This document shows positions 18,527-25,133 of a DNA stretch of 64,000 bases, one piece after another. Location of the stretch: positions 1 to 64,000 of the forward strand of contig PAPT01000024.1 in assembly GCA_002708995.1 (NCBI GenBank), in the 5' to 3' direction. Made by a program: the position numbers and the translations under genes. This stretch comes from Geminicoccus sp. Its GTDB lineage: Bacteria > Pseudomonadota > Alphaproteobacteria > UBA7985. Within the stretch, counting starts at the first letter, position 1; each line of letters starts with the position of its first letter. The notes beneath the pieces were generated by a model. That model searched no databases, was not told where the DNA came from, and saw only the letters and a list, made by a program, of their open reading frames with translations.

Positions 18527-19205
18527 TTGGAAACCACCGACATCGGCGGCCATCGCCACCGCCTGCGCGACCGCCTGATCCGGGGCGGACCGGAAGCGCT
18601 GGCCGACTGCGAGGTGCTGGAAGTCCTGCTGTTCGCGGCAATGCCCCGGGGTGATACTAAGGCGCTCGCCAAATCGCTGATCGCGCAATTCGGTTCCCTC
18701 GGTGACGTGCTCTCCGCACCCCCTGAGGCGCTGGTCACCGTCAAGGGCGTCGGTCAGGCGGCCGTTGCCGCGATTGCCGTGGTGCGCGAGGCCTCTCGGC
18801 GGCTGGCAGCGGAGCAGATTGCGGACAAACCGCTGCTCTCGTCCTTTGATGCCCTGCTCGAATACTGCCGCCTGCTCCTTAGTCACAGCCGGGTGGAGGA
18901 GTTTCACCTGTTGTTTCTCGACACCAAGAACCGGCTGATCCGCCACGAACGGCAGGGGAGTTGGAACGGTCGATCAGGCCCCGGTTTACGTGCGCGAAGT
19001 GCTGCGCCGGGCGCTGGATCTGGCTTCGACCAACGTAATCATGCTGCACAATCACCCCTCGGGTGACCCTGCGCCCTCGCGCGCCGATATCGCTATCACG
19101 CAGCAGGTGATCAAAGCCGGACAACCGCTGGGCGTGAAGGTGCATGACCATCTGATCATTGGTCGCTCGGGTCAGGTGTCGCTAAGGAGTAAGGGATACA
19201 TTTAA
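18527..19205 (+). pseudogene. radC: RadC/JAB-domain protein interrupted by a +1 frameshift near 18961
   Basis: Frame 2 gives N-terminus to [14 protein letters not shown]; the next frame continues [43 protein letters not shown]...; removing one T at 18961-18962 joins them. Confidence 0.85.
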
Positions 19206-21484: not shown

Positions 21485-21874
21485 ATGGCTGATCTTGATG
21501 CTCTCGTAGAAGAACTCGGCAAGCTGACCATTCTGGAAGCCGCTGAACTCTCAAAGAAACTCGAAGAAGAGTGGGGCGTTTCCGCTGCTGCTCCTGCTGC
21601 TGGCATGATGATGATGGCCGGCGCAGCTGGCGGTGACGCTGGCGGTGCAGCTGCAGAAGAAAAGACCGAATTCGACGTCATCCTGAAGTCCGCTGGCGAC
21701 AAGAAGATCAACGTGATCAAGGAAGTCCGCGGCATCACCGGCCTGGGCCTGAAGGAAGCCAAGGACCTGGTCGAAGGCGCGCCAAAGCCTGTGAAGGAAG
21801 GTGCTCCGACGGACGAAGCCGAAGAAATCAAGAAGAAGCTGGAAGAAGCTGGCGCAGAAGTTGAACTCAAGTAA
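21485..21874 (+). CDS. rplL: 50S ribosomal protein L7/L12
   Basis: [37 protein letters not shown]...[12 protein letters not shown]. Confidence 0.98.
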
Positions 21875-21909
21875 GACGCGCCGCTGTTTCAGTGGAATTG
21901 ACGAAAAAA

Positions 21910-21943
21910 GGGGCGTGGTTCCGGTCAGAGCCACGCCCTTTTT
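21910..21943 (+). terminator. Rho-independent terminator downstream of rplL
   Basis: GGGGCGTGG-ttccggtcagag-CCACGCCC followed by TTTTT. Confidence 0.85.
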
Positions 21944-22037
21944 CTATGCGGACGGTGGTGGACGGCCGCGGGAGAGGAAGCTGGTGCCCGAAGGCTGTGG
22001 GGTGAGCCTCCGGGTTTAAGGGGTCAGAGGCGCAGAA

Positions 22038-22421
22038 TTAGCGGTCGCGGCGGTCACCCTTCATGCCTTTGCCCTTACCCTTTTTGCCCTTACCCGGACG
22101 ACGGGCTGGCAGCTCGACGCCGGCGGCTTCGGCAGCAGCCTCGACCACTTCACGCTCGGGACGCTCGTAGCCGGCTTCTTCAGCAAGGGCGCGGACACTT
22201 TCCTTCACGGTCCGGCGGTCTTCTTCTGGCCAGTTGGAGGCTGCACACTCGGTCGCCAGCGTTGACCAGAAACCCGCTGCGTCATCGAGGCCGATGGAGG
22301 AGAAGAAGTCGGCCCGGTTGCTGAAGCCGGCACAGTCGCGCGGCTGGGCCTGGGCGACAGTGGCACCGAGGGTGATCAGGACGGTGGCGGCGGCGAGGCT
22401 GGAGAGGATCATGGTTTTCAT
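22038..22421 (-). CDS. Small secreted protein with Lys/Gly-rich C-terminal tail, unknown function
   Basis: MKTMILSSLAAATVLITLGATVAQAQ signal peptide; tail RRPGKGKKGKGKGMKGDRRDR. Confidence 0.7.
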   Translation of the reverse strand: MKTMILSSLAAATVLITLGATVAQAQPRDCAGFSNRADFFSSIGLDDAAGFWSTLATECAASNWPEEDRRTVKESVRALAEEAGYERPEREVVEAAAEAAGVELPARRPGKGKKGKGKGMKGDRRDR

Positions 22422-22456
22422 GGGTTGGTTCCTATTCGTTTCCTGTTGTTGGCGTG

Positions 22457-22532
22457 TGCGCGTTGTGCTCACACACCAATGCATATATGAGCAAAAAGCG
22501 CACGTCAACAGAAAATGTGAGCTTTTTGCGCA
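22457..22532. promoter_or_regulatory. Divergent promoter/operator region with three TGAGC-N5-GCGCA motifs
   Basis: 22457-22471 TGCGCGTTGTGCTCA (reverse orientation), 22488-22502 TGAGCAAAAAGCGCA, 22518-22532 TGAGCTTTTTGCGCA. Confidence 0.75.
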
Positions 22533-22627
22533 GAAAGTCGCTACGTCATGAGGGGGCATGGGCAAAAAGACCTAAACAAGGCCCCAATCACCGCCAGCGC
22601 GCGGACAAGACAAAGAGACGAGGACCA

Positions 22628-23533
22628 ATGACGGGAACCGATCCGAAGCACGCTTATCTGCAGGCCACGCGGCGCCTGATGCAGCAACTGGCAGCCGGTG
22701 GGCTGCGGTTGGGGCTGTCGCATGGCCAGCTTGAGGCGGGTCTGCGCGATGCCATGCTCGAGGCAGCCTACCTGCAGTCCCAACGCAGCGGGGGGCGGGT
22801 GACCGTATCGTCGCTGCACGTGGCAACCGGGATCCATCGGCGTGAGATATCCCGCTGGCTGAGCGAGCGGAACGAGGTGGCAGCCGGTGAAACCGGGGCT
22901 GGCGAAACCGGGGCTAGCGAGGCCGCGCCGGCCAAAGGAGACAGCGCGTCGGCGCTGACGCTGGGCAACGACAGCCCCTCGGCCCGGGTGGTCGCGCGCT
23001 GGACCACCAACGCAGGCTATACGGACGCGCAGGGCGAGCCACTGGCGCTGCCCATGCAGAAGCGGGCCGATGGCCCCAGCTTTGCGCAGCTGGTCGAGGA
23101 TATCGGTCCTGAAGTCCGTGCGCGCTCGGTGCTCGACGGGCTGATCGCCGCCGGGCTGGTCGAGGCGCAGGCAGGCGGTCACTTCAGCCTGTCAGCCGCT
23201 GCCTATCTGCCGGAGGCCAATTCAACGGAGAGCATCGGCTTTCTCGCGGCCAACGTCGGTGATCACCTTGCCGCCGCGATCCATAACATTTCAGCGCCGG
23301 CTGATGCGCGTTTTTTCGAGCGGGCGTTCTTCGACGATGATGTCAGCGCGGAAACGGTCCTTACCTTGCAGGAAACCTTGCGCACTGAGGGCATGGACCT
23401 GCTCCGCGGTCTGGTCACCACCAGCGACAGCGTCGAGCGCGCGCAGCGCGAGGCCGGGGATGGCGGCGGGCAGCGGGTTCGTATTGGTCTCTTTTGCTTC
23501 ACGGAGAGTGGGGATGCTGATGCGGGCACCTGA
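22628..23533 (+). CDS. DUF6502-like protein with an HTH-like segment
   Basis: HTH-like RVTVSSLHVATGIHRREISRWLSE; overall resemblance to DUF6502 recalled, not searched; ATG at 22628 preceded by GAGGA. Confidence 0.6.
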   Translation: MTGTDPKHAYLQATRRLMQQLAAGGLRLGLSHGQLEAGLRDAMLEAAYLQSQRSGGRVTVSSLHVATGIHRREISRWLSERNEVAAGETGAGETGASEAAPAKGDSASALTLGNDSPSARVVARWTTNAGYTDAQGEPLALPMQKRADGPSFAQLVEDIGPEVRARSVLDGLIAAGLVEAQAGGHFSLSAAAYLPEANSTESIGFLAANVGDHLAAAIHNISAPADARFFERAFFDDDVSAETVLTLQETLRTEGMDLLRGLVTTSDSVERAQREAGDGGGQRVRIGLFCFTESGDADAGT

Positions 23534-23648
23534 AACTGGCCTTGAACTCCGGTCCTGGACACCGGCCCTTAAGACGCCTCGAAGTCCGATTAGAAGACCC
23601 GCGCTACACATTTCTCTCTGACCCGCTAAACCATGAGAACGCCCCGGC

Positions 23649-24800
23649 ATGACCAACACCCCCGACCGCCGCCGACTGCTGACCCTTCTCGGGGGGTCTG
23701 CCCTGAGCCTGACCCTCGGCGGCTCTGTCTGGGCGCAGAGTGGCGCAGGCATTGGTGGTACTGGCATCGACAGCGGCCTTGGCGGCACGGGTATCGATGC
23801 CGGTCTGGGGGGTACCGGGATCGACGGCGGGCTTGGTGGGACCGGGATCTTCGGCCTGATCGAAGGCTTTTCGTCAATCTGGGTCAACGACGTCCGTATT
23901 GAAATCCCCGAGACCGCCGTCATCACCCTAAACGGCCGACCTGCGCGCGAAGCGGATCTGACGCTGGGCCAGACCGTAGCGGTCGAGGCCGAAGACGATG
24001 GGCAGGACGGATTTGTCGCCCGCCGGATCGACGCGGCCTTTGCGCTCGTTGGCCCCATCAGCGGCGCGGAAAGCGCGGGCGATCGCCTGCGGCTGCGCGT
24101 ACTGGGGCAGGTGATCGAGGTCTCGGCGTTGACCCTTACCAACAGCCTGCGCCTGGGCGACTGGGTGGTGGTGACCGGGCTGCGTGACCACCGCGGCACG
24201 ATTCAGGCGGCGAACGTTGCACGTACGGACAGTCGGGAAGCCGTGGTTACCGGGCCGGTCAATCGCGACGGTCGTGTGGCGGGGGTGCAGGTTGTGCGCC
24301 TCGCAGGCACGGCGGCAGACCCGAGCCTAAGCGTGGTGCCAGGAACGCGGGCGACGGTGCTGGGGCCGCTGACCGATGAACCGGAGCCGAGGCTGGTGGC
24401 GACGACGGTCGCGACCCGGCCGCTGGAGGTCTTCGATCGCCGCCGCTTCAGCACGCTGGTGCTCGGCGGACTGCCGGGCAACGAGGACGATACGCTGTAC
24501 GTCGACGGCGTGCGGTTCAGCCTGCCCGGTGCGCGCGGGCGGGCCGACCCAGGGCAGCGAGGCCTGCGTGACCGCATCCATGGGCGCTTTGGCGCTTCGG
24601 AAGCCGGCCTGCGTCCCATCGGCCCGGTGGGCATTGCTCGGGAGCCGCTGGCGCCCTTCGCCGGTCCGGGGCGCAAGGGGCCGGGGAGGGACCGCCCCCA
24701 TCGCGGTTCGGGCTCAGGGCTTGGCGCCAGCCGCCCGGAAGAGCGACTGCGCGATATGCTCCGATCGGGTGCGCGGGCCAAGCCGCTGAAAAAGCCCTGA
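23649..24800 (+). CDS. DUF5666-like exported protein with GIGGTGI-type repeats
   Basis: DRRRLLTLLGGSALSLTLGGSVWAQ signal (Tat-like RRR), repeats, then IEGFSSIWVNDVRIEI resembling the DUF5666 motif. Confidence 0.7.
   Translation: MTNTPDRRRLLTLLGGSALSLTLGGSVWAQSGAGIGGTGIDSGLGGTGIDAGLGGTGIDGGLGGTGIFGLIEGFSSIWVNDVRIEIPETAVITLNGRPAREADLTLGQTVAVEAEDDGQDGFVARRIDAAFALVGPISGAESAGDRLRLRVLGQVIEVSALTLTNSLRLGDWVVVTGLRDHRGTIQAANVARTDSREAVVTGPVNRDGRVAGVQVVRLAGTAADPSLSVVPGTRATVLGPLTDEPEPRLVATTVATRPLEVFDRRRFSTLVLGGLPGNEDDTLYVDGVRFSLPGARGRADPGQRGLRDRIHGRFGASEAGLRPIGPVGIAREPLAPFAGPGRKGPGRDRPHRGSGSGLGASRPEERLRDMLRSGARAKPLKKP
23748..23855 (+). repeat. Four 27-bp tandem repeats encoding G(I/L)GGTGI(D/F)x
   Basis: GIGGTGIDS-GLGGTGIDA-GLGGTGIDG-GLGGTGIFG. 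Confidence 0.9.
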
Positions 24801-24803
24801 GCG

Positions 24804-24860
24804 TGGTTGCGCCGACTTGTCCCCGACCGTGCGTCACGCGACGGGGCCAAGCGTCGCGCA
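24804..24860 (+). repeat. 57-bp dispersed palindromic repeat, copy R1
   Basis: Reverse complement matches 34614-34670 with 4 mismatches. Confidence 0.85.
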
Positions 24861-25133
24861 ATCTGCCGCGCAGCAGCCCTGCCATGCCCACGCCCTTCGA
24901 GGACTTGAAGAAAGGAGTCGACCGGCGTAAATCTTCGTGTCGACAGTGATGGCTGTCGGCGCGCACTCTTTACAAAAATACGGGGCCACCGGTTCCGACC
25001 CAGGCAGACCGACCTTTTCAGCCCGGTCCTAAGCGGCTTTGGTACCCTTTAACGCAGGGACAGCCCCCGACCATCCCGACTGTGAGTGCTTTTCCGCTGG
25101 CAGAAAACGACCCAACCAGGGAGCCCTAGGTTT

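Follow-up and report, generated by a model that had tools for sequence, protein, structure and literature searches.

A conserved palindromic array of probable operators upstream of a DUF6502 gene points to a local autoregulator

Helix-turn-helix (HTH) autorepressors of the TetR/tetA or MarR type act locally at divergent promoters, and activators of the MerR type also bind in a promoter spacer, MerR promoters having spacers of 19-20 bp. NtrC sites are palindromes of the form TGCACC-N5-GGTGCA. For the DUF6502 family (PF20112), the Pfam entry gives no function, and a search of the open-licence literature (subscription papers lay outside it) found no paper naming DUF6502, PF20112 or the motif strings described here. 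The locus analyzed here carries a member of this family, followed by a DUF5666 gene as at most of the DUF6502 loci read, next to an array of palindromes that can be compared with each of these systems.

Within the window, the whole 64,000-nucleotide stretch of DNA that was analyzed, three exact TGAGC-N5-GCGCA motifs lie between divergent genes, just as a sequence-only reading had claimed: putative operator site 1 (22457..22471, reading TGAGC-ACAAC-GCGCA on the minus strand), site 2 (22488..22502, plus strand, TGAGC-AAAAA-GCGCA) and site 3 (22518..22532, plus strand, TGAGC-TTTTT-GCGCA), the last being proximal to the DUF6502 gene. All three are 15-bp imperfect palindromes described by TGMGC-N5-GCKCA. 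The putative divergent target gene (22041..22421, minus strand) encodes a small secreted protein of 127 aa that matched no Pfam family and has an orthologue in the same place in three other members of the genus (G001, G002 and G005). On the other side, the inferred regulator, a 301-aa DUF6502 protein (22628..23533, plus strand; PF20112, E = 2.4e-19, 69.7 bits, where the curated threshold is 27 bits), is followed by its downstream partner, a DUF5666 protein with GIGGTGI repeats (23649..24800, plus strand; PF18914, E = 4.2e-8); a GIGGTG-type or annotated DUF5666 gene comes after DUF6502 in most loci read. The cassette of small gene, DUF6502 and DUF5666 (21874-25086) stands between rplL and rpoB, genes usually close together, and a terminator-like hairpin was seen by eye after rplL near 21910-21945. 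Elsewhere in the window (18527-19205), radC appears to run in two frames with a one-base shift near 18955-18975, which may reflect a genuine frameshift or an error in the assembly.

The three motifs are very probably operators of the adjacent DUF6502 protein, an autoregulator that would probably repress both itself and the divergent gene; the sequence evidence pairing this protein with the sites is strong. The sequence-only reading had listed a DUF6502-like protein among the candidate regulators, and all the evidence points to DUF6502. We infer that the protein binds physically, as a dimer, through an N-terminal HTH (residues 60-88), its target being the 15-bp palindrome, whose centre is rich in A+T. 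Site 2 would sit between the -35 and -10 elements of the small secreted protein's divergent promoter, site 1 just downstream of the inferred transcript start of the same gene, and site 3, on the DUF6502 side, would control the DUF6502-DUF5666 operon. Bound DUF6502 would block RNA polymerase at both promoters, repressing itself and its divergent neighbour, until released by a signal presumably sensed by its C-terminal region.

The predicted fold is compatible with such a role. Single-sequence AlphaFold2 modelling of residues 1-90 (mean pLDDT 80; 88-95 over residues 51-80) placed helices 60-67 and 71-88 in an HTH arrangement, encoded at 22805..22891 on the plus strand. The structure search was made with residues 1-90 only, the full-length fold being too poor (pLDDT 37.9); the four-helix N-terminal model matched the HTHs of TetR, TrpR and MntR/IdeR at Z 6-7 with no clear winner, a level reached with common HTHs that therefore shows no family. 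A Pfam search of the window protein with E up to 5 returned nothing beyond DUF6502 and a weak match to DUF6142, none of the Pfam HTH families, including the TetR, MarR and MerR profiles, matched, and a profile search of solved structures found no relative.

Alignment of the window genome with G001, G002 and G005 revealed that 27 of the 30 positions in motifs 2 and 3 were invariant in the four genus members (12/15 in site 2 and 15/15 in site 3), against 10-25% in the flanks. The gap between these two motifs kept 11/15 positions; conservation was 10% in the leader to the DUF6502 start and 23% in that of the small gene. Site 1 was the least conserved of the three, with only 6/15 positions invariant; it reads TGTGC-N5-GCTCA in G001 and G002 and is absent from G005. 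The proposal that the array serves as operators between divergent genes is borne out by a footprint in four same-genus genomes, with motifs 2 and 3 kept in the orthologous intergenic regions and motif 1 only partly so. In G001, G002 and G005 the intergenic array stays together with the genes for the small secreted protein, DUF6502 and DUF5666; in G001 and G005, whose DUF6502 proteins are 60-61% identical to that of the window, the cassette lies elsewhere, beside a transporter-like gene and not between rplL and rpoB. The footprint, kept across this change of genomic context in two of the four genomes, counts in favour of the DUF6502 reading.

The divergent promoter on the minus strand, TTGACG-17-TATGCA with the middle motif filling its spacer, is present as the sequence-only reading described it. 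Its -35 element TTGACG (22503..22508) is kept in all four genus members and abuts the operator in distant families, and its -10 element TATGCA (22480..22485), 17 nt away, is weak; the four genus hexamers (TATGCA, TATGTG, TATTGC and TATCTG) all lack the final T. The arrangement agrees with a sigma-70 promoter (TTGACA-like -35, 16-18 bp, TATAAT-like -10) apart from the weak -10, and it scored below the threshold of a consensus promoter scan, which called no promoter here. Among 24 DUF6502 loci picked by a TTGACG/A hexamer facing away from DUF6502, TA was found exactly 17 nt downstream of the hexamer in 20, with other offsets at no more than four. An operator adjoining the -35 and occupying the whole spacer, the arrangement of motif 2 in the window, was present in 18; because the loci were chosen by the hexamer, the evidence is the fixed 17-nt TA and not the hexamer itself. 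For DUF6502's own promoter, no conserved -10 was found downstream of motif 3 in the window genus. At gamma-type loci, TANNNT lies inside the N6 form of the operator in 14 of 25 cases, usually a few bases ahead of the start codon, an arrangement that suggests self-repression.

These promoters also bear on whether DUF6502 might bind the same sites and activate the divergent promoter, compensating for the weak -10, a reading that we consider unlikely. The missing final T in every genus -10 hexamer would suit it, as would the general precedent of MerR-type activators, which likewise bind inside the spacer; however, the spacer has the usual length of 17 bp and is not stretched as in MerR promoters, and in other families the site either lies in promoters with a fair -10 or covers the -10, which suits repression.

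Less likely still is a helically phased, cooperative array that would also control a plus-strand promoter, TTGTGC-17-TATGAG. The distance between motif centres is indeed 30-32 bp in each of the four genus members, but none of the other three retains the plus-strand -10, so that this promoter, also put forward from the sequence alone, is unsupported. Strict phasing at three helical turns, part of the same proposal, proved weak as well: across the family, loci carry one to three sites, with neighbouring sites mostly 28-39 bp apart, rising to 60 bp, and this range suggests that the two promoters, not a helical face, determine the spacing. Two back-to-back promoters fit the spacing better.

The association of the palindromes with DUF6502 extends well beyond the genus. 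A set of 190 distinct DUF6502 genes of Pseudomonadota was examined over the 250 bp upstream: a perfect TGnnn-N5-nnnCA palindrome was present at 67, against 3.0 (maximum 8) in 20 rounds of dinucleotide shuffles, and the N6 form at 25 (shuffles 3.1); the other 15 end dinucleotides with N5 reached 9 at most. About half of the 190 genes had no perfect site within this distance. N9 palindromes were also enriched (14 vs 3.8) and were rejected as a new class, since they probably arise from TGTGG..CCACA in the outer part of the palindrome already described. DUF6502 homologues in other families share the layout and differ in the arms, as in GTGGGAAAAAATCCCACGTCAACAAAAATGTGGGTAGTTTTCCCAC (G019) versus GTGAGCAAAAAGCGCACGTCAATAAAAAATGTGAGCTTTTTGCGCA (G002): relatives with a site usually have TGGGA/TCCCA arms, whereas the window genus has TGAGC/TGCGC. 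Four of five named loci have TGGGA-N5-TCCCA upstream of DUF6502, namely the annotated DUF6502-DUF5666 pairs of Azospirillum lipoferum 4B plasmid AZO_p2 (the site of this relative reads TGGGAAAATTTCCCA), Methylocystis iwaonis and Pseudoroseomonas cervicalis, and the locus of Microvirga lotononidis, where the DUF6502 copy is unannotated. The fifth, that of Rhizobium etli CFN 42 p42f (L246), keeps the pair and has no operator palindrome upstream. Three same-order relatives (L032, L033 and L036, family f3) have no TG..CA site upstream by the strict rule; GTAAATGGGAATTT occurs there twice in opposed orientation, the copies being about 190 bp from each other. A single-protein scan recovered one close relative in genome contigs and none in viral contigs.

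Within this family, the arm bases follow the protein. In 89 DUF6502 genes with sites, arm base 5, which adjoins the spacer, was compared with position p3 of the recognition helix: 61 paired K with A, 17 R with C, and 7 R with A, six of these seven exceptions having HRRDVR- or HRRDLR-type helices. The window protein follows the same rule, with arginine R72 (codon 22841-22843) and C-type arms. Among well-filled protein columns, p3 ranked first by standardised association (z 19.9; next 12.5), a ranking that is a fair internal control because all protein columns share one phylogeny; on raw mutual information, p3 (0.47) is outscored by a column with more variation (0.66), and the covariation claim therefore rests on the standardised value. 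On a tree built with the helix masked, four K/R switches were found, two of them forced by well-supported branches, and all were on average in the expected direction; a tree-aware sign test was not significant, four independent switches on the best tree being too few. A sub-group with helix VHRKDVKRI (L185, L189 and L193) has TGCGA-N5-TCGCA sites, in which arm base 3 varies as well. Several genomes of family f194, namely G612 (L057, L076, L077, L078), G755, G812, G821 and G874, each have between three and five paralogues of DUF6502, and those of G612 differ in both recognition helices and operator arms.

Both sets of results weigh against a different, global regulator that would bind the sites with DUF6502 merely one of its targets, which we regard as highly improbable. 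A palindromic half-site by itself names no protein, and the bare motif TGMGCN5GCKCA occurs at 55 places in the 2.6-Mb genome (the reversed pattern at 14); such a common word makes frequency alone no proof. Strict sites, however, are nearly confined to the DUF6502 locus: strict TGGGAWWWWWTCCCA occurs at 11 places in 16 DUF6502-bearing genomes, 10 of which map by coordinates to the DUF6502 locus, the eleventh lying inside a histidine-kinase-like ORF, and at none in 13 genomes without DUF6502. The arm bases, too, track the DUF6502 recognition helix. In the window genome, requiring an A/T-only centre and freeing the third arm position left three places: motifs 2 and 3, and a third (C19:25084) that sits between unrelated genes. 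A pair of motifs 10-22 bp apart was found in 7 of 289 genomes, four being of the same genus with the pair upstream of DUF6502, and the remaining three having single GC-rich matches each.

Chance clustering of a common GC-rich word can be dismissed: TGMGCN5GCKCA is abundant genome-wide, yet at its genome density only about 6e-5 triples are expected within 76 bp, and motifs 2 and 3 of this unusual cluster are nearly invariant across genomes with ~60% identical DUF6502 proteins, a conservation that refutes the chance reading.

Beyond this locus, it is reasonably likely that DUF6502 constitutes an unrecognised and widespread family of local regulators, in which K or R in the recognition helix sets A or C in the operator arm and N5 and N6 spacers mark sub-families. 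For this protein family, which is found in many families throughout the phylum Pseudomonadota and is listed as unknown in databases, the analysis supplies a function that can be tested, a defined site on the DNA and a candidate residue for specificity, and the regulated genes are named as those for DUF5666 and small secreted proteins, themselves uncharacterised. If this is true, paralogues within one genome (up to five) could be naturally orthogonal switches, serving DUF5666 and small secreted proteins.

Compared with known systems, the arrangement would resemble the TetR/tetA and MarR type in having palindromic operators over two back-to-back promoters, one of them the regulator's own, but the window protein matches neither profile, and its N-terminal model resembles the HTHs of TetR, TrpR and MntR/IdeR only at the common level already given. 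With MerR-type regulators it shares an operator within the -35/-10 spacer of a divergent promoter, and it differs in the length of that spacer, 17 bp and not 19-20, and in the lack of a MerR profile match. The sites themselves recall those of NtrC, being TG...N5...CA palindromes of similar length, but they differ in the inner arm bases and lie on sigma-70-type rather than sigma-54 elements.
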